DNA from: Microbacterium forte
GTDB lineage: Bacteria > Actinomycetota > Actinomycetes > Actinomycetales > Microbacteriaceae
Assembly: GCF_031885415.1 (NCBI RefSeq)
Contig: NZ_CP116871.1
Location: 1,798,001 to 1,862,000, forward strand
Direction of reading: 5' to 3'
Length of the DNA stretch: 64,000 nucleotides
Shown: positions 15,096 through 61,097 of the stretch, piece by piece
Layout: each line of letters begins with the position of its first letter
How positions within the stretch are numbered: position 1 is the stretch's first letter
Notes under the pieces: model-generated
What the model was told of the DNA's origin: nothing
Seen by the model: only the letters and a program-made list of their open reading frames with translations
Databases searched by the model: none
Program-made: the position numbers and the translations under genes

Positions 15096-15180
15096 CGGAG
15101 GGTGTGGGATTCGAACCCACGAGACATCTCTGCCCACTGGTTTTCAAGACCAGCTCCATCGGCCACTCGGACAACCCTCC
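15096..15180 (-). tRNA. tRNA-Ser (anticodon TGA)
   Basis: An 85-base class II tRNA. The acceptor GGAGGGT pairs with ACCCTCC, the anticodon loop CTTGAAA gives TGA, a long variable arm is present, and the T-loop is GTTCGAATC. The discriminator is G and CCA is not encoded. It lies between the LCP and HAD genes, with a possible -10 (TAGACT) on the same strand at 15209-15214. Confidence 0.95.
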
Positions 15181-39063: not shown

Positions 39064-39136
39064 GGCCCCATCGTTTAGCGGCCTAGGACGCCGCCCTTTC
39101 ACGGCGGTAGCACGGGTTCGAATCCCGTTGGGGTCA
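39064..39136 (+). tRNA. tRNA-Glu (anticodon TTC)
   Basis: A 73-base cloverleaf. The acceptor GGCCCCA pairs with TGGGGTC, the anticodon loop is CTTTCAC, and the T-arm is CGGGTTCGAATCCCG. Discriminator A, no CCA. A possible -10 (TATGCT) is at 39022-39027. Confidence 0.96.
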
Positions 39137-39146
39137 CTCCTTCCGG

Positions 39147-39152
39147 TATAAT
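39147..39152 (+). promoter_or_regulatory. TATAAT -10 box before tRNA-Asp
   Basis: A perfect TATAAT lies between tRNA-Glu and tRNA-Asp, 13 bases before the tRNA-Asp 5' end. Its -35 would fall inside the 3' part of tRNA-Glu, so tRNA-Asp may have an internal promoter besides read-through. Confidence 0.5.
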
Positions 39153-39165
39153 TGAAAACAAGTAT

Positions 39166-39239
39166 GGCCCTGTAGCGCAGTTGGTTAGCGTGCCGCCCTG
39201 TCACGGCGGAGGTCGCGGGTTCAAGTCCCGTCAGGGTCG
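39166..39239 (+). tRNA. tRNA-Asp (anticodon GTC)
   Basis: A 74-base cloverleaf. The acceptor GGCCCTG pairs with CAGGGTC, the anticodon loop is CTGTCAC, and the T-arm is CGGGTTCAAGTCCCG. Discriminator G, no CCA. Confidence 0.96.
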
Positions 39240-39250
39240 CTCTAAGCGAC

Positions 39251-39278
39251 GGGCCTTTCTCTTCGAGAAGGGCCCTTT
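39251..39278 (+). terminator. Rho-independent terminator after tRNA-Asp
   Basis: GGGCCTTTCT and AGAAGGGCCC form a 10-bp stem (one G-T wobble) with a short TTCG-containing loop, followed by TTT. Confidence 0.75.
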
Positions 39279-39310
39279 CGTCTAGATGCGACAGGTCTAG
39301 CCCGTCGCAC

Positions 39311-39383
39311 GGCTCTGTAGCTCAGTTGGTAGAGCGCACGACTGAAAATCGTGAGGTCACGGGATCGACGCCCGTCGGAGCCA
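39311..39383 (+). tRNA. tRNA-Phe (anticodon GAA)
   Basis: A 73-base cloverleaf. The acceptor GGCTCTG pairs with CGGAGCC, and the anticodon loop is CTGAAAA. The T-stem ACGGG/CCCGT encloses ATCGACG, so position 54 is A instead of the nearly universal T. Discriminator A, no CCA. Confidence 0.95.
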
Positions 39384-54132: not shown

Positions 54133-54161
54133 TTCCGCTGAACGTCCGGTTCCGCTAGAGT
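54133..54161 (+). promoter_or_regulatory. Candidate promoter of the exopolysaccharide locus
   Basis: TAGAGT (54156-54161) is a good -10, preceded after 17 bp by a weak -35 (TTCCGC). Transcription would begin near 54168, giving a leader of about 150 bases to the upstream ORF. Confidence 0.5.
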
Positions 54162-54167
54162 GAACGA

Positions 54168-54368
54168 AGTCTGCAGTGCCTGCTGCCAGCACCACCGTGT
54201 GGGACGGTGACCGCAACTCGTGATTTGGGATCACGGATGCAGCAGGACCCGAGGGGTCGGGACGCAGACGATGCCATGGACGTGGGGTCCGTGGTCTGGG
54301 GAATATCTGGGGAAAACTATGGCGCACTGGGGAATTTTGCGTACATTCACGGCTCAAGGGGCCTCGGC
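54168..54368 (+). promoter_or_regulatory. Structured leader of the sugar-transferase gene with TGGGGAA repeats
   Basis: The leader contains the hairpin CGTGAT-TTGGG-ATCACG (54219-54235) and TGGGGAA repeats at 54297, 54308 and 54328. A GGAC/GTCC hairpin also lies near 54275. The same combination (TTGGGG-loop hairpin followed by two TGGGGAAT copies before an ATGG) recurs at 60360-60461. No known riboswitch class was recognised. Confidence 0.55.
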
Positions 54369-54372
54369 ATGA
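54319..54372 (+). CDS. 17-residue leader peptide (upstream ORF)
   Basis: ATG at 54319, with GGGGA 5 bases upstream, encodes MAHWGILRTFTAQGASA and stops with a TGA at 54370-54372 that overlaps the sugar-transferase ATG (ATGA). The peptide itself has no recognised role. The precise overlap suggests translational coupling or attenuation. Confidence 0.5.
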   Translation: MAHWGILRTFTAQGASA

Positions 54373-55901
54373 CTTCCGTCGAGGATGCTCTGAGCATCAC
54401 CCGCACGGGTACGGTCTTCACGCCGGTCGCTGCTCCTCGAGCCGCCAAGTCGGTCACGCGCACGGTGGTCACACCTCGCGTGTCCGCAACGCTGGAGCGA
54501 CGCCGTCAGTGGGAGCGGCGTTATCGGATGCGACTGCGGATCACGGATGCCGGGGTCATCCTGTTCGCAGTCGGAATCACAGCAGCGGTCCAGGTGATGA
54601 CCGGTGTCGCAGGGGAAGAGGCCCTGCGAACCGGCACTCTGCTGGGCACGCTCTGGTATCTGATGCTCGGCGCGCTGCACACCCGTGACGCAGCGCTGTT
54701 CCGCGCCAGCGCCACCGAGTACCGCGGTGTGGCACACGCCAGCGGGCTGGCGTTCGGGATCATCGCCATGCTCAGCGTCGTGCTCGGTTGGCAGACGACG
54801 CAGCTCGTGCTGCTCGTCGGCCTGCCGCTCGGTGTTCTCACGCTGCTCGTCACCCGCTGGGCGTGGCGGCACTGGCTGACGGCGCAGCGTGCGCGAGGGC
54901 GTTTCGCCTCGCGCACGCTCGTCGTCGGCAACCGCGACGACGTCGAGTACGTCATCCGCACCCTGCACCCGATCGGCGCCTCCGGGTATCAGGTCGTCGG
55001 CGCGACGCTGCTCGACGGCAACGCACGCGACGTCGAAGCCCGCGGCGCACAGTTCCCGGTGCTCGGCAACGTCAACTCGGTCTCGACCGTGGCCGCCGAG
55101 CTGGGCGCTGACACGATCATCGTCGCGAGCCGTCCCGACGGCGAGCCCGATTTCGTGAAGCACCTCAGCTGGCAGCTCGAGGGCACCGCAGCAGAACTCG
55201 TGCTCTCCAGCCGCCTCACCGACGTCGCCGGTCCGCGCATCTCCTTCGCACCGGTCGAGGGGCTTCCGCTCATCCAGGTGCAGATCCCCTCGTACGAGGG
55301 CGGTCAGCACGTGCTCAAGCGTGCACTCGACATCGCCGTCGCATCCGTCGCGCTCATCCCGATCGCACTGATCACGCCGATCCTCGCCCTGCTCGTGAAG
55401 CTCGACTCGCCGGGGCCCCTGTTCTTCTCTCAGGAGCGCGTCGGCCGAGATGGCCGCACCTTCCAGATCATGAAGTTCCGCTCGATGAAGACCGATGCCG
55501 AGCAGCAGCTCGCGACGCTCAAAGAGCAGAACGAGGGCGCCGGCCTGCTGTTCAAGATGAAGGACGACCCGCGTGTCACCCGAGTCGGCCGGATCCTGCG
55601 CAAGCTGTCGCTCGACGAGCTGCCGCAGTTCTGGAACGTCCTCATCGGAGACATGAGCGTCGTGGGTCCGCGCCCGCCGCTTCCTTCCGAGGTCACCGCC
55701 TACGACGGCACCGTGTTCCGTCGTCTCTACATCAAGCCGGGCATCACGGGTCTGTGGCAGGTCTCCGGCCGCAGCGACCTCTCGTGGGACGAGAGCGTTC
55801 GTCTCGACCTGCGCTACGTCGAGAACTGGTCGGTCATGAACGACCTGCAGATCATGTGGCGCACTGCCAAGGTCATGGTGCGGCCCAGCGGGGCATACTA
55901 G
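54369..55901 (+). CDS. Polyprenyl-phosphate sugar-1-phosphate transferase (WbaP/CpsE-type)
   Basis: A 510-residue priming transferase of exopolysaccharide synthesis. Basic N-terminus, four helices (about 60-165), a cytoplasmic Rossmann-like CoA-binding region, then another helix and the catalytic domain (about 313 onward) with SPGPLFFSQERVGRDG, MKFRSM and LDELPQFWNVLIGDMSVVGPRPP. It loads the first sugar phosphate onto the lipid carrier. The start ATG has AAGGGG upstream and overlaps a 17-residue upstream ORF. First large gene of the locus. Confidence 0.93.
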   Translation: MTSVEDALSITRTGTVFTPVAAPRAAKSVTRTVVTPRVSATLERRRQWERRYRMRLRITDAGVILFAVGITAAVQVMTGVAGEEALRTGTLLGTLWYLMLGALHTRDAALFRASATEYRGVAHASGLAFGIIAMLSVVLGWQTTQLVLLVGLPLGVLTLLVTRWAWRHWLTAQRARGRFASRTLVVGNRDDVEYVIRTLHPIGASGYQVVGATLLDGNARDVEARGAQFPVLGNVNSVSTVAAELGADTIIVASRPDGEPDFVKHLSWQLEGTAAELVLSSRLTDVAGPRISFAPVEGLPLIQVQIPSYEGGQHVLKRALDIAVASVALIPIALITPILALLVKLDSPGPLFFSQERVGRDGRTFQIMKFRSMKTDAEQQLATLKEQNEGAGLLFKMKDDPRVTRVGRILRKLSLDELPQFWNVLIGDMSVVGPRPPLPSEVTAYDGTVFRRLYIKPGITGLWQVSGRSDLSWDESVRLDLRYVENWSVMNDLQIMWRTAKVMVRPSGAY

Positions 55902-55902
55902 T

Positions 55903-55979
55903 CACAGAACACTGTGGTTCGGTCCGCCGGGGAGGCGGATGCAGAACCGTGACGCAGTGAAGTGGGTGCGGAAGCACCC
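55903..55979 (+). other. Intergenic RNA with three perfect hairpins
   Basis: Directly after the sugar-transferase stop: CACAG-AACA-CTGTG (55903-55916), TCCGCC-GGGGA-GGCGGA (55923-55939) and GGGTGC-GGAA-GCACCC (55964-55979), all with perfect stems. The next gene starts at 56000 after AGGGGA. Partial termination, RNA processing or translational control are possible. Confidence 0.55.
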
Positions 55980-55999
55980 GACATGAGGGGAAAATCACC

Positions 56000-57148
56000 G
56001 TGCCATCAACCGTCCGGATACTTGGCACCCATGGCGTTCCCGCCGCCTACGGCGGCTTCGAGACGGCCGCCGAGAACGTCGGCCTGTACCTGCGCGAGCA
56101 GGGGTGGAACGTCATCGTCTACTGTCAGATCCCCGGGGAGGGGCCGACGACGGTGGATGAATGGAACGGCCTGCAGCGCGTTCTGATCCACGAGCCCCGC
56201 GAGGGCTGGAAGGGGACCTCGGCGTTCGACCTGACCTCCACCCGTCACGCGATGCGCGCGCACTCGGATGGCGATGTCTGGCTCACCTTCGGCTACAACA
56301 CCGGCGTGTTCGACGTGATCCCCCGGCTTCGCCGGATCCCCAATGTCATCAACATGGACGGCATGGAGTGGACCCGCAAGCGGTGGGGGGTCGTGAAACA
56401 GGGGATCCTGCTCGCCAACGAACGCCTGGCCGGCCTCGTGGGAGACGTGCTGATCGCAGACCACCCGGTGATCGCGACGTACCTGCGTCGGCACTTCGGG
56501 AAGAAGCGGGTGCAGACGATCACCTACGGCGCGCACGAGGTCACCGAGGCGCCGACGGGCCCCGTCGAGGCGCTTGGCCTCGTCCCCGATCAGTACGCGA
56601 CGATCGTCTGCCGCCCGATCCCCGAGAACTCGGTGCTCGAGATCGTGAAGGCGTGGTCGTCCGAGAAACGCGGCATGCCGCTCGTGGTCGTGGGTCCCTA
56701 CGGAGATGATGATCCATACCATCTCGCCGTGCGCGCCGCAGCCTCCGATGAGGTCCTGTTCCCGGGGGCGATCTTCGAACCCGAGCGTCTGCAGTCGCTC
56801 CGCTTCCACTCCGCTCTCTACCTGCACGGGCACACGGTGGGCGGCACCAACCCGTCACTGGTCGAGGCGATGGCCGCGGGCAACGCCGTGATCGCCCATG
56901 ACAATCCCTACAACACCTGGGTCGCCGGACCCGACAACGCCTACTTCACCGGAACCGACGATCTCGCCGGCCTGCTCGACGATGTGCTCTCCGATGACAG
57001 CAGAAGGCGGCGCATGGGTGCCGCCAGCCGTGACCGTTTCCACGCTGAGTTCACGTGGACCAAGATCGGCTCCGAGTATGAACACGCTCTTCGCACCGCG
57101 CTCGCGCGTCGCGGGCACGTACAGCAGCAGACAGGGGTAAACGCATGA
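56000..57148 (+). CDS. DUF1972/GT4-type glycosyltransferase (rhamnosyltransferase-like)
   Basis: A 382-residue glycosyltransferase. The DUF1972 N-terminal domain has GTHGVPAAYGGFETAAENVG, characteristic of Cps2T/WcaL-like transferases that add rhamnose to the first sugar. The C-terminal GT-B half contains GGTNPSLVEAMAAGNAVIAHDNPYN. Acts at the cytoplasmic side on the lipid-linked oligosaccharide. GTG start; overlaps the next gene by 4 bp. Confidence 0.9.
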   Translation: MPSTVRILGTHGVPAAYGGFETAAENVGLYLREQGWNVIVYCQIPGEGPTTVDEWNGLQRVLIHEPREGWKGTSAFDLTSTRHAMRAHSDGDVWLTFGYNTGVFDVIPRLRRIPNVINMDGMEWTRKRWGVVKQGILLANERLAGLVGDVLIADHPVIATYLRRHFGKKRVQTITYGAHEVTEAPTGPVEALGLVPDQYATIVCRPIPENSVLEIVKAWSSEKRGMPLVVVGPYGDDDPYHLAVRAAASDEVLFPGAIFEPERLQSLRFHSALYLHGHTVGGTNPSLVEAMAAGNAVIAHDNPYNTWVAGPDNAYFTGTDDLAGLLDDVLSDDSRRRRMGAASRDRFHAEFTWTKIGSEYEHALRTALARRGHVQQQTGVNA

Positions 57149-58260
57149 TCGATGTCGCAGTGGTCGGACTCGGGAAGATGGGGCTGTCTCATCTTTCGAT
57201 GATCAAGGCCCACCCCGACGTGAATCTGGTGGGGGTGTGCGACGCCACCGGGTATCTGCTCGACATCCTGGCCAAGTACACCGGGGTCAAGCCCTACAAG
57301 GACCTCGACAAGATGCTCGACGAGGCCCGCCCGCAGGCCATCATCATCGCGACGCCGACGCATCTGCACGCCGGGATGATCCGGAACGCACTCGAGCGCG
57401 GCATCCACGTCTTCTGCGAGAAGCCGCTCGTGATCGATCCGGCCGACAGCATCGAGCTCACCGCGCTCGCCGAGCAGAAGGGACTCGTCACGCAGGTCGG
57501 TTATCACAACCGCTTCGTCGGTGCTTTCAGCGAGGTCAAGCGCCTGCTCGACCTCGACGCCATCGGCACCGTCAACACGGCCCTCGCCGAGGCGTACGGC
57601 CCCGTCGTGCTGAAGCCCGCCGGGCGCACCTGGCGCAGCGAGCGCGCGACCGGGGGCGGCTGCCTCTACGATTACGCGGCCCATCCGCTGAACCTCCTCA
57701 CCTGGTATCTCGGCACGCCGGACTCGGTGAGCGGAAGCCAGTTGACGAGCATCTTCTCGGCGCAGATCGACGATGCGGTCGCGAGCACGCTGCACTACCC
57801 GAACGGCACGGCGCAGATCATCTCGAACTGGTCCGACGAGTCGCAGCGCAAGATGACGACCAAGATCACCCTCTGGGGAACGAACGGGCGGATCTACGCC
57901 GACCGGCAGGAGATTCACGTCTACCTGCGCGACACCGCGACCATCCCCGACGGATATCGCGTCGGCTGGAACGTGCGGTACACGACCGACCTGACGGAAG
58001 CGCCCTGGTTCTATCTTCGGGGCGAGGAGTACAGCGCTCAGCTCGACTCGTTCGTGCAGCGCGCTCAGGCGGGCGCGTCCGCCGGGCTCAACGACTTCGC
58101 CTCAGCGGCGGTCACCGACAGGGTGATCTCGATGATCAGCGAAGATGCTCTGCGCGACGGTTCACGGCTCACCGCCGACGCCGCGTCCGATCTTGCAGTG
58201 AACACGGCACCGAAGGGGCGCATCGCGGCAGCACTGACCGCACTGCGCGGAGGGAAATGA
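57145..58260 (+). CDS. Gfo/Idh/MocA-family oxidoreductase of the polysaccharide locus
   Basis: A 371-residue NAD-dependent dehydrogenase. VAVVGLGKMGLSHL is the Rossmann motif and FCEKPLVIDPADS the family hallmark. The C-terminal domain includes GGGCLYDYAAHPLNLLTWYLG. In such loci these enzymes oxidise a nucleotide sugar, for example at C3 before transamination. No aminotransferase is visible here. It overlaps both neighbours. Confidence 0.88.
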   Translation: MIDVAVVGLGKMGLSHLSMIKAHPDVNLVGVCDATGYLLDILAKYTGVKPYKDLDKMLDEARPQAIIIATPTHLHAGMIRNALERGIHVFCEKPLVIDPADSIELTALAEQKGLVTQVGYHNRFVGAFSEVKRLLDLDAIGTVNTALAEAYGPVVLKPAGRTWRSERATGGGCLYDYAAHPLNLLTWYLGTPDSVSGSQLTSIFSAQIDDAVASTLHYPNGTAQIISNWSDESQRKMTTKITLWGTNGRIYADRQEIHVYLRDTATIPDGYRVGWNVRYTTDLTEAPWFYLRGEEYSAQLDSFVQRAQAGASAGLNDFASAAVTDRVISMISEDALRDGSRLTADAASDLAVNTAPKGRIAAALTALRGGK

Positions 58261-58262
58261 CC

Positions 58263-59150
58263 ATGACGACACCCACGCGAACCATGGACCGGCTTCTGTT
58301 CGGTGACAACCAGTTCTTCGGCGTCAATCACATGTCCGAAGAGAAGGCCCGCGCTCAGCAGATGCGGTTCCAGGACACCGGTGCGATCATGGGGGTGCTC
58401 GATGCCGCGTACGACGAGGGCGTTCACACGTTCATGTGCACCACGCATGATCGCATCTCGGAGGTGACCGACCACGTCCGCGCACATCCGGACCGTTATG
58501 CGGACATGACGTTCTTCCCGTGCATGCCGTATGCGCACAAGTACGCGAACGCTGTGACGGAAGACGGGTTCCTCGGCGCGATCCGCAAGTTCCTCCCCGA
58601 GGAAGGGCTGCTCGACAGCATCGCGCGCGGCACGTCGTCGCTCGCTCGCAAGGACATCGAAGGCGTGACGACCCTGCTCATCGACGCCGAGATGAAGATG
58701 TTCGAGGGGCTCGACACCCCCGTCATCTGGCTGCAGAACGTGGTCGTCGATCTGCTGTCGGGTCTGGGCTTCACCGACGCCTTCCGGATCTTCGCCGACC
58801 ACGTGCGCAAGCGCTACAACGCGGAGCCCGGTTTCATCACCATGAACCTCCCTCGATTGCTCGATGACCTCGACAAGGCCGGCGTCGAGAACCCGATCGT
58901 GTGCTCCAACATCAACAAGCTGGGGTTCCGCATGTCCGGCGGAGTCGAGGCGTACCGTGACGCCATGGAGAAGCGCCAGTTCCGTGCCGTCGCGATGTCG
59001 GTGTATGCGAGTGGCGCGATCCCGCCTCGCGAAGCCATCGAATGGGTGACCTCGCTGCCGAACCTCGAGTCGATCGTCTTCGGCGCATCCAGCCGTGCGA
59101 ACATCGCATCGACGGTGAGCCTGGTCGACGAGTACTGGCCTCAGCGCTGA
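58263..59150 (+). CDS. Conserved protein of unknown function in the polysaccharide locus
   Basis: A 295-residue cytoplasmic protein that I do not recognise. It begins with DRLLFGDNQFFGVNHMSEEKA and has alternating strand-helix character with VHTFMCTTHDRISE, MTFFPCMPYAHKYANA and ESIVFGASSRANI, which suggest a TIM-barrel aldolase- or reductase-like fold. It lies directly after the oxidoreductase (possible ATG at 58257 overlapping its stop, but GGAGGG is spaced for 58263) and 1 bp before a glycosyltransferase, so a role in making a sugar precursor is likely. Confidence 0.75.
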   Translation: MTTPTRTMDRLLFGDNQFFGVNHMSEEKARAQQMRFQDTGAIMGVLDAAYDEGVHTFMCTTHDRISEVTDHVRAHPDRYADMTFFPCMPYAHKYANAVTEDGFLGAIRKFLPEEGLLDSIARGTSSLARKDIEGVTTLLIDAEMKMFEGLDTPVIWLQNVVVDLLSGLGFTDAFRIFADHVRKRYNAEPGFITMNLPRLLDDLDKAGVENPIVCSNINKLGFRMSGGVEAYRDAMEKRQFRAVAMSVYASGAIPPREAIEWVTSLPNLESIVFGASSRANIASTVSLVDEYWPQR

Positions 59151-59151
59151 C

Positions 59152-60291
59152 ATGCCGAAGGGTGACCCGAACGTCGTCCTGATCGCCAACCCCGGCTCCG
59201 ACCTCTACGGCTCGGATCGGATGGTTCTCGAGACCGTCCGCGCGCTCGTCGGCGCGGGGCGGAGGGTCGTGGTGACCGTGCCCATGGCAGGGCCCCTCGT
59301 GCCGCTGCTCGAGGAAGCCGGAGCCGAGGTCGTCGAGTGCGCGACGCCGATCGTCCGCAAGGGCCTGCTGAACGCACGGGGACTCGTGGAGCTGGTCGTG
59401 ACGACGATCAAGGCCGTCGGCCCCGGGCTCAGACTCATCCGACGCGTCGACCCCGGCGCGGTGATCGTGAACACCATCACTCCCCCGCTGTGGATCCTCC
59501 TCGGCCGCATCAGCCGACGCCGCACGGTCTGTCACGTGCACGAGGGTGAGGGCTCCGTCGCCGGCATCGTGCGCCGCGCCCTGTACCTGCCGCTCGTGTT
59601 CAGCGATCGCGTCATCGCGAACAGCGACTTCACGCGTCGCGTCCTGGCGTCCTCCGCTCCTCGGGTCCGCGACAGGACGATCGTGGTGCACAACGCGGTC
59701 CCCGGTCCAGGTGAGGTCGTTCCACCGCGAATCGCGCTCACCGCCCCGACGCGCCTCCTCTACGTCGGTCGACTGTCACATCGCAAGGGCGTGCATGTGG
59801 CGGTCGATGCGCTCGACGCGCTCGTCCGCGAGGATCGCGACGTTCGTCTCGACGTGGTCGGCGCTGTCTTCCCCGGCAACGAGGCATACCTCGATGAGCT
59901 TCGCGCCCAGGTCGCCCGCTGCGGACTCGAGGATCGGGTGTCCTTCCTGGGATTCAAGTCGTCGGTGTGGGACGACCTCGCGCGCAGCGACATCGCCGTG
60001 ATCACCTCCCTGGTCGACGAGACGTTCGGCAACACCGCCGTCGAGGCCGCTCTCGCCGCGCGTCCTGCGGTGGTGAGTAAGGTCGGTGGTCTGCCGGAAG
60101 CAGTGAGTTCGTCGCAGAGCGCGACGCTCGTGGCCCCCGGCGACGCTGCTGCGCTCGCGGCGGCGATCGCTGCCAAGATCGACGATTGGCCCTCGCAGGC
60201 AACGCTCGCCGTATCGGATTCCTCGGCAGTCGCGGACGCGTTCTCGGTCGATCGGTACACCGACGGGATCCTCGCCGCACTTCCTCGCTGA
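59152..60291 (+). CDS. GT4-family glycosyltransferase
   Basis: A 379-residue GT-B enzyme. ANPGSDLYGSDRMVLET is the N-terminal acceptor-side motif and RLLYVGRLSHRKGVHVAVDAL begins the donor domain. DETFGNTAVEAALAARPAVVSKVGGLPE is the E(x7)E-type donor-binding signature. It has no transmembrane segment and would extend the lipid-linked oligosaccharide. It starts 1 bp after the preceding stop. Confidence 0.93.
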   Translation: MPKGDPNVVLIANPGSDLYGSDRMVLETVRALVGAGRRVVVTVPMAGPLVPLLEEAGAEVVECATPIVRKGLLNARGLVELVVTTIKAVGPGLRLIRRVDPGAVIVNTITPPLWILLGRISRRRTVCHVHEGEGSVAGIVRRALYLPLVFSDRVIANSDFTRRVLASSAPRVRDRTIVVHNAVPGPGEVVPPRIALTAPTRLLYVGRLSHRKGVHVAVDALDALVREDRDVRLDVVGAVFPGNEAYLDELRAQVARCGLEDRVSFLGFKSSVWDDLARSDIAVITSLVDETFGNTAVEAALAARPAVVSKVGGLPEAVSSSQSATLVAPGDAAALAAAIAAKIDDWPSQATLAVSDSSAVADAFSVDRYTDGILAALPR

Positions 60292-60320
60292 AGGTCTAGC
60301 GAGATCTATCCACAGGACTC

Positions 60321-60458
60321 TTGTCCCCCATCCAGTGGACATGATACGATCGCGCTCACTGGGGATAGCGTCATTTGGGGATGACGCAAGCCGATCGACT
60401 CGTTCTGAACGGGCCGACATCGGCAACCCTGATTGGGGAATCTGGGGAATCGACAATC
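60321..60458 (+). promoter_or_regulatory. Promoter and TGGGGA-repeat leader of the lipoprotein gene
   Basis: TTGTCC (60321-60326) and TACGAT (60345-60350), 18 bp apart, give a transcription start near 60357. The leader holds GCGTCAT-TTGGGG-ATGACGC (60368-60387), TGGGGATA at 60360, and TGGGGAAT at 60434 and 60443, just before the ATG at 60459. The design matches the leader at 54168-54368. Confidence 0.6.
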
Positions 60459-61097
60459 ATGGTGATTGCGCGTACAAGCATGTCCATCGCGGCCCTCGCG
60501 CTCTGCGTGAGCCTGGTCGCCTGCAGCGGCACTGGGGAGCCGTCGAGCGGAGCGGATCCGACGGTCACATCGTCGGCGACTCCCGCTCCTGAACCGTCCG
60601 CGAGCTCCGCGCCGTCGGCGAACTCGGGAGCGACCACCCCCGACGAGCCTGTCGCGAAGATCGAGCGTGCGGGGCACTCGGATGCACCGACCGTGAAGGC
60701 GGATCCGGCGGACACCTCGGATGCCGTGTCCTACGACGACGGCGTCAGCGTCCGCATCGACGACGTGTCGTTCGGCAAGGAGACGTCGCAGGGACCAGGG
60801 AGCTTTCCGGGCCGCGAATACGCCCGACTGACGATCACGATCGACAACGGCTCCTCCGACTCGATCGACCTCGGCACGTCGGTGCTCACGGTGCTCGATG
60901 CGAGCGGCGCGACCGCGGTGCGCGTCTACGCCGCCGAAGCGGAGGTCACCGACTTCGCCGGCACGGTGGCCGCAGGCAAGAGCGCCACCGCGACCTACGC
61001 CTTCGCGCTCCCCGTGGATGCGCGCGACGAGGTCACCGTGGTCGTCGACTTCGACGGCGACCATACATCCGCCGTCTTCCGCGGAGGGCTCGGCTGA
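60459..61097 (+). CDS. Secreted lipoprotein with a DUF4352-like beta domain
   Basis: A 212-residue lipoprotein. The signal has ALCVSLVAC as lipobox region, followed by a Ser/Thr/Pro-rich linker to about residue 85. A folded C-terminal domain then contains REYARLTITIDNGSSDSIDLG, VTDFAGTVAAGKSATATYAF and VTVVVDFDGDH, the pattern of immunoglobulin-like DUF4352 proteins. It probably sits on the outer face of the membrane and may interact with the exported polysaccharide. ATG 60459 is chosen from the leader motif; ATG 60480 is an alternative. Confidence 0.75.
   Translation: MVIARTSMSIAALALCVSLVACSGTGEPSSGADPTVTSSATPAPEPSASSAPSANSGATTPDEPVAKIERAGHSDAPTVKADPADTSDAVSYDDGVSVRIDDVSFGKETSQGPGSFPGREYARLTITIDNGSSDSIDLGTSVLTVLDASGATAVRVYAAEAEVTDFAGTVAAGKSATATYAFALPVDARDEVTVVVDFDGDHTSAVFRGGLG

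Follow-up and report, generated by a model that had tools for sequence, protein, structure and literature searches.

G-rich loops in surface-polysaccharide mRNA leaders of Microbacterium and C-rich loops of small RNAs suggest an RNA-to-RNA switch for the cell surface

What reads the G-rich motifs that recur before surface polysaccharide genes of Microbacterium forte? The question is raised by a stretch of 64,000 nucleotides (nt) of its 3.75-Mb genome (G000; the whole stretch analyzed, hereafter the window, is G000:C1:1798001-1862000), in which a polysaccharide locus carries two leaders of similar design, leader A before a sugar transferase gene and leader B before a lipoprotein gene. An earlier note had described in each a TTGGG(G)-loop hairpin followed by paired TGGGGAA boxes, and had proposed a conserved RNA or DNA control element shared by two transcription units and matching no described class. 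We find that the leaders are structured, that their runs of G are opener than in shuffled sequences and that UGGGGA boxes lie at or beside ribosome-binding sites. On the sequence evidence, the two leaders are probably target arrays for small RNAs (sRNAs) with C-rich hairpin loops, and the G-rich loops of surface-sugar mRNA leaders together with C-rich sRNA loops suggest an RNA-to-RNA switch for the cell surface.

G-loop hairpins and box pairs in the window

Re-reading the sequence located all the motifs that the note had claimed. The window contains exactly two perfect TTGGG(G) hairpins with a stem of at least 6, against a mean of 0.03 and a maximum of 1 in 200 dinucleotide shuffles, and both stand in leaders of the one polysaccharide locus. 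TGGGGAA occurs 10 times in the window (shuffle mean 2.77; 0 of 100 shuffles as high), and pairs of it with starts at most 22 nt apart occur three times (shuffle mean 0.005, maximum 1, over the same 200 dinucleotide shuffles). GGGGA might simply be the ribosome-binding word of the genus, duplicated by chance with no regulator involved, and UGGGGA does stand at the usual distance before several starts, such as that of the upstream open reading frame (ORF) of leader A. However, many boxes are too far from any start, the hairpins and box pairs of the window exceed all 200 shuffles, and box enrichment differs with the C-loop RNAs of a genome, as described below; we regard a chance origin as very unlikely.

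Leader A comprises the following elements (window coordinates; "pair counts" refers to 11 aligned leaders):

54156-54161, plus strand: predicted -10 element TAGAGT (sequence; by eye, related leaders have TAGAGT, TACAGT or similar)
54169-54269, plus strand: structured domain (pair counts)
54169-54174/54264-54269, plus strand: outer helix (pair counts)
54179-54185/54240-54246, plus strand: inner helix (pair counts)
54193-54209, plus strand: hairpin CACCGT-GTGGG-ACGGTG (sequence, pair counts)
54219-54235, plus strand: hairpin CGTGAT-TTGGG-ATCACG, from the earlier note (pair counts)
54248-54261, plus strand: hairpin CCCGA-GGGG-TCGGG (sequence, pair counts)
54274-54294, plus strand: hairpin CCATGGAC-GTGGG-GTCCGTGG (4 of 8 pairs changed on both sides)
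54297-54303, plus strand: box A1, TGGGGAA (sequence, motif count)
54308-54314, plus strand: box A2, TGGGGAA, likely ribosome-binding site of the upstream ORF (sequence, ORF scan)
54319-54372, plus strand: upstream ORF MAHWGILRTFTAQGASA*, 17 codons, with an ATGA overlap with the transferase start (ORF scan of leaders)
54328-54334, plus strand: box A3, TGGGGAA, within the upstream ORF (sequence, motif count)
54369-55901, plus strand: bacterial sugar transferase (PF02397), likely start ATG 54369 (domain search)

The hairpin and boxes listed before for this leader thus stand, but the leader is longer and holds further G-loop hairpins. The ATG at 54319, which the note had listed in the leader, opens the 17-codon upstream ORF rather than the transferase gene, whose likely real start is ATG 54369. 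An upstream ORF of the type M[AST]HWG... is present in all 14 close leaders scanned (12 genus genomes plus the named loci L222 and L223), and in these a CTGGGGA box lies directly 5' of it; at L060 the ORF was reported in a longer form that contains the M[AST]HWG ORF. By eye, close leaders have a -10-like sequence upstream of the hairpins, and an upstream ORF that ends in an ATGA overlap is seen in two more distant leaders (L077 and L080) as well. Microbacterium sp. H83 (91%) and M. oxydans (86%) are among the sources of close named relatives of the transferase.

The six helices of leader A, read from its own sequence, are paired in 96.2% of the cells of the 11 aligned leaders. Both-sided changes were found in 10 of 38 base pairs (shuffled mean 3.3, 0 of 500 as high; G036 was excluded from this count as too divergent), and sliding the helices by 1 to 3 columns left 0 to 2 such pairs. 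Runs of at least four G (143 runs in 28 leaders) have a mean unpaired probability of 0.46 versus 0.31 in shuffles, a comparison whose printed p-value is not literal because the leaders are kin. Many leaders have an unremarkable folding energy when taken whole (z from -4.1 to +1.6). The six G-runs of the M. forte leader A have unpaired values from 0.86 down to 0.04, so that not all boxes are predicted to be open in the ensemble.

In leader B, similar elements precede the lipoprotein gene:

60345-60350, plus strand: predicted -10 element TACGAT (sequence; kept in the G001 ortholog)
60360-60365, plus strand: box TGGGGA close to the predicted 5' end (sequence)
60368-60387, plus strand: hairpin GCGTCAT-TTGGGG-ATGACGC (sequence, shuffles, G001 ortholog)
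60434-60440, plus strand: box TGGGGAA; GATT-GGGG-AATC pairing possible (sequence)
60443-60449, plus strand: box TGGGGAA, 10 nt 5' of the lipoprotein ATG (sequence)
60459-61097, plus strand: lipoprotein with DUF4352 (PF11611), start 60459 (domain search)

All the elements described earlier for this leader are there, and the TGGGGA at 60360 adds one that had not been listed. The segment GATTGGGGAATC could form a short hairpin on its own. The ortholog in G001 keeps the boxes, with one stem pair changed on both sides, and a distantly similar lipoprotein gene in G002 (27% identity) also has a leader with boxes (L143). A third leader of this kind lies in the same locus outside the window (G000 1878824-1878870), before a cytidylyltransferase gene (PF01467); here the box of TGATC-TGGGGA-GATCATG falls in the loop of a hairpin that covers ribosome-binding site and start codon.

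Strand and distribution of the boxes

We then considered the genus at large, in a sample of 59 genomes of which 55 have a transferase match. Within 300 nt upstream of the 30 best genus transferases, TGGGGA occurs 75 times on the mRNA strand and 0 times on the other strand, against a shuffle expectation of 5.2. In the same sequences, runs of four G number 160 versus 17 on the other strand (78 expected). Three of the 30 loci (G008, G038 and G032) have no TGGGGA in these 300 nt, and G011, G048 and G052 have one each. Twenty-nine genomes were chosen by eye as box-bearing: those of the 30 loci except G038 and G032, plus G014; G008 was kept for its other G-runs despite its zero count.

The boxes might be sites for a transcription factor on DNA, about one helix turn apart, as direct repeats 9 to 20 bp apart would allow (54297-54334 and 60434-60449). 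However, they lie downstream of the predicted -10 elements, on one strand only and at variable spacing, and some sit inside hairpins with both-sided changes, which makes DNA sites a very improbable explanation. Of the "RNA or DNA" element proposed before, the covarying stems, the one-strand boxes and the -10-like sequences upstream of the hairpins favor the RNA half and disfavor the DNA half; as far as sequence can tell, the element most likely acts as RNA.

Across Actinobacteria, 450 nt upstream of 80 named transferase loci contain 26 TGGGGA versus 4 on the other strand. Among the matches listed, only Microbacterium loci have at least three (L222, L223 and L227). Twelve of the 80 upstream sequences were inspected by eye, and those with box arrays were the Microbacterium ones; the remaining loci were counted only. 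Twenty more distant paralogs of the transferase (L159-L178, 42 to 46% identity) were inspected by eye; the ribosome-binding sites in their upstream regions look ordinary, and G014 alone shows an array. Boxes also precede genes for other secreted proteins or lipoproteins, for instance in M. forte (L021) and in relatives (L142, L143, L150 and L157), and some are written into the start codon as ATGGGGA. The motif is thus shared by the two units, as had been noted, but is not limited to them, since it recurs before other envelope genes. Similar leaders do occur upstream of orthologous genes in related genomes; together with the covarying stems and strand-specific boxes, these alike leaders support the idea of a conserved control element. 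Several box-pair matches, among them L145, L146, L148 and L149, were discarded as leaders, as they look like ordinary coding sequence.

Two intergenic stretches outside the window also carry boxes. One (L020, L141 and L151; G000 3313900-3315000) is a conserved stretch that resembles an RNA and has G-boxes and a hairpin with a C-run; a second sugar transferase gene (G000 3310856-3312295) lies about 2 kb upstream of it. The other (L017 and L147; G000 2348582-2348606) has box pairs conserved between genomes and no clear downstream gene on that strand.

CsrA would be a familiar reader of such leaders, as it binds GGA in hairpin loops and at ribosome-binding sites and represses translation, in the manner of its repression at the Escherichia coli pgaA leader. 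M. forte encodes CsrA, GGA is part of the box word, and boxes occur in loops and across ribosome-binding sites. However, CsrA is present in only 15 of the 59 genus genomes, and the conserved word is UGGGGA, not the ANGGA of CsrA sites. We rejected it as a general reader of the leaders because only 11 of the 29 box-bearing genomes encode it, the other 18 having no CsrA match, and we consider a CsrA mechanism highly improbable.

Structured leaders before long polysaccharide operons also resemble the signals read by other factors, such as a LoaP-type NusG paralog acting by antitermination, another protein, or a ligand bound by a riboswitch. A search for known cis-regulatory families in Rfam returned only four tRNAs for the window at gathering score and no match for leaders at selected loci, including L052, at E 1; no search covered NusG paralogs. 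Leaders differ widely in how many hairpins they have and in hairpin sequence, but they keep the G-boxes, and these boxes are also found ahead of single genes. A reader of this sort is unlikely.

Small RNAs with C-rich loops

If the boxes are targets of sRNAs with C-rich loops, such RNAs should be sought in the same genomes. The 6C RNA family (RF01066) gave matches in 17 of 34 genus genomes at E 0.1, 4 of them above the cut-off, and some of the weak matches are unlike 6C. A 6C stem-loop pattern was found in 37 of the 59 genomes, with 0 control matches, although some of these are not 6C; a model built from 20 pattern sequences matched 22 of the 32 genomes given to it. With Rfam, pattern and model combined, all 29 box-bearing genomes have a 6C-like RNA. 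That of M. forte, which is divergent (hairpin G000:C1:3451559-3451591, loops AUUCCCCC and UUCCCCCC), has two hairpins with C-run loops, the second being the terminator, and aligns with genus relatives of which some are above the Rfam cut-off.

A second candidate, sRNA-2, is a hairpin with a CUCCCCCCG loop present in 15 of the 59 genomes, with 0 in the control. Upstream of it, on the same strand, 14 of the 15 sRNA-2 genomes have a conserved candidate RNA with three hairpins and CCCCA loops, which we call tri-C; exceptions occur in single hairpin loops, such as the third of G034. A -10-like sequence precedes tri-C in 13 of the 14 loci, as scored with an expression written after the sequences had been viewed. 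Both sides changed in 19 of 39 tri-C pairs (shuffled mean 8.8, 0 of 500 as high), the structure being predicted from the same alignment. CCCCA occurs 66 times in sense and 8 times in antisense in 19 of the 22 tri-C loci matched, with L337, L342 and L343 outside the count. No Rfam family, RF01066 included, overlaps the tri-C stretch at E 1 (11 loci).

A tri-C model matched 16 of 40 genomes at E 0.1, 2 of the 16 being in its training set, and tri-C is found in 21 of the 29 box-bearing genomes. A strict third-hairpin pattern matched 2 of 9 genus genomes and none of the 389 others in the family. Known members escape this pattern, and the figures are therefore a lower bound. M. forte has two tri-C RNAs, A (2419559-2419707, minus strand) and B (3058113-3058264, plus strand); in the minimum-energy fold of B all three C-runs are open. 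The next gene after tri-C appears to belong to one protein family in 12 of 17 loci, presumably SseB-like. In G031 and G025, tri-C lies about 0.6 kb from the transferase gene and points away from it. The G-boxes at G000 2419640 (L018) had been considered as a G-loop sponge RNA, a candidate that we dropped: in 13 of 14 loci the -10-like sequence belongs to the opposite strand, and these boxes are thus taken as the antisense of tri-C loops.

Several palindromes lie near these RNAs and near leader B. A near-perfect one, TTTGTCCCCCA..TGGGGGACAAA, lies just upstream of sRNA-2 (L018, G000 2419100-2420200; 14 related loci among L302-L316), and leader B is preceded by a related one, TGTCCCCCATCCAGTGGACA, at about 60323-60342. 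A CCGATATATCGG-like palindrome is found upstream of the 6C promoter region at several 6C loci of relatives, e.g., L095 and L097. In G012, several CCCCA hairpins stand beside a TTGTCCCCCATATGGGGGACA palindrome on the strand opposite to the transferase match, roughly 1.2 to 1.46 kb upstream of it (L064); as tri-C gave no match in this genome, the stretch is possibly one more C-loop RNA. In M. forte, sRNA-2 is followed by a cold-shock-like gene.

Match between boxes and loops

In M. forte, the tri-C loops (UUCCCCAG or UCCCCA) complement the boxes (CUGGGGAA or UGGGGA) exactly, and by base count they are the best fit to them. Predicted duplexes of seven boxes range from -12.0 to -16.5 kcal/mol with the UUCCCCAG loops, from -11.1 to -15.7 kcal/mol with three other tri-C loops and from -9.8 to -15.1 kcal/mol with 6C loops, no set having a shuffle control.

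We next compared TGGGGA pairs with a reversed-pattern control, counted per genome class; the counts still include ordinary coding matches such as those discarded above. The 29 box-bearing genomes have 273 pairs versus 79 in the control. Pairs are not enriched in 9 genomes whose 6C loops are GCCCCCC (30 versus 27), nor in 10 genomes without a 6C match, four of which are less than 90% complete (23 versus 27); the remaining 11 have 51 versus 26. Tri-C and transferase arrays co-occur, tri-C being present in 21 of the 29 box-bearing genomes versus 6 of 22 others (Fisher p 0.002, uncorrected for relatedness); G003, a weak match, and G027, G039, G044, G046, G053, G055 and G058, which were not given to the tri-C model, were left out of this test.

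Several observations weigh against targeting by C-loop sRNAs. The genomes are related, so that the genus counts are not independent. In the minimum-energy fold of the M. forte tri-C A, the first two C-runs are paired internally, unlike in the consensus. The 6C-like RNA of M. forte gave no match to RF01066, nor did L139 at E 1. The duplex energies of the seven boxes have no shuffle control. Eight of the 29 box-bearing genomes have no tri-C match, yet box pairs are enriched there (67 versus 15), implying either that 6C suffices or that tri-C was missed; the model searches for 6C and tri-C scored only part of the candidates, so that absence of either is not proven. Finally, a co-evolution test was null: genomes with GCCCCCC loops should have switched to TGGGGGC boxes, but TGGGGGC pairs are few in them and, in most, below the reversed control. 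As box and loop are near-invariant where they match, co-evolution could not be shown.

Proposed mechanism

If the leaders are indeed targets of C-loop sRNAs, C-loops and G-boxes would pair in trans, several at once. In leader A, a C-loop bound to box A2, the likely ribosome-binding site of the upstream ORF, would block translation of that ORF, and through the ATGA overlap translational coupling would extend the block to the sugar transferase. In leader B and in the cytidylyltransferase leader, pairing beside the start codon would block translation directly. Because the boxes overlap ribosome-binding sites, translational repression is the likely outcome, by analogy with mycobacterial B11. When the C-loop sRNAs are made, the polysaccharide genes would be repressed jointly, and several loops meeting several boxes may yield a steep response.

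More tentatively, the sRNA family with three UCCCCA loops and 6C could together form a multivalent loop-to-loop code that engages UGGGGA-loop arrays in leaders of surface polysaccharide, lipoprotein and secreted-protein genes, with one sRNA holding several boxes and the upstream ORF with its box at the ribosome-binding site relaying the block by coupling.

Other features of the locus and window

The downstream part of the locus (G000 1862000-1881900, L022) encodes a PKD-domain protein, an O-antigen-ligase-like protein and a weak Wzz-like protein (minus strand). Elsewhere in the window, three tRNA genes lie in a row at 39064-39383, and a fourth is at 15096-15180, minus strand.

Relation to known systems

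Pairing between C-loops and G-tracts is itself already known. In Gram-positive bacteria, the C-loop seeds of the sRNAs RsaE and FsrA pair with G-rich ribosome-binding regions, and sX13 of Xanthomonas is reported to have a C-rich seed loop that does likewise; we know of no target hairpin arrays for these three. The leaders also resemble those regulated by CsrA, and CsrB-type RNAs, in having several GGA hairpins, one of them at a ribosome-binding site, and in serving surface polysaccharide genes. They differ from CsrA leaders in their conserved word, UGGGGA, and in the 18 of 29 box-bearing genomes that lack a CsrA match.

The closest parallel is 6C RNA (RF01066; B11 in mycobacteria), with C-rich-loop hairpins, one of which is the terminator, and G-tract targets near ribosome-binding sites; the Microbacterium leaders likewise have a G-tract at or near a ribosome-binding site that is complementary to a C-loop. 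The 6C/B11 targets include envelope polysaccharide or lipooligosaccharide genes (PMC12395582, PMC10470900). In M. marinum, B11 uses its C-rich loop 3 to repress lipooligosaccharide genes with G-tracts close to the ribosome-binding site, and repression returned in part when a matching change was made (PMC12395582). In M. abscessus, either C-loop is enough, and repression returns once pairing is restored (PMC10470900).

In contrast to 6C/B11 targets, a Microbacterium leader has its G-loop hairpins and boxes arranged in an ordered array, set over an upstream ORF that is coupled to the gene. Tri-C differs from 6C in its three UCCCCA loops, in its unrelated sequence and in having no RF01066 match at E 1 in the loci scanned. 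The earlier statement that no described class fits therefore needs qualification: the mode of action likely resembles that of 6C/B11 on G-tract targets, but the box arrays and tri-C were not found in Rfam or in the literature searched. As far as Rfam and the open-license literature were searched, two things are new: the tri-C RNAs, and leaders in which an ordered and covarying set of G-loops stands over an upstream ORF coupled to the gene.

If this interpretation is correct, Csr control would have a counterpart in actinobacteria that consists solely of RNA, and the 6C family would gain a clear target architecture outside mycobacteria. Multivalent sRNA pairing would become testable, as the boxes and loops are countable and each can be removed or put back singly, and the coupled upstream ORF would offer a simple readout for the surface polysaccharide locus.

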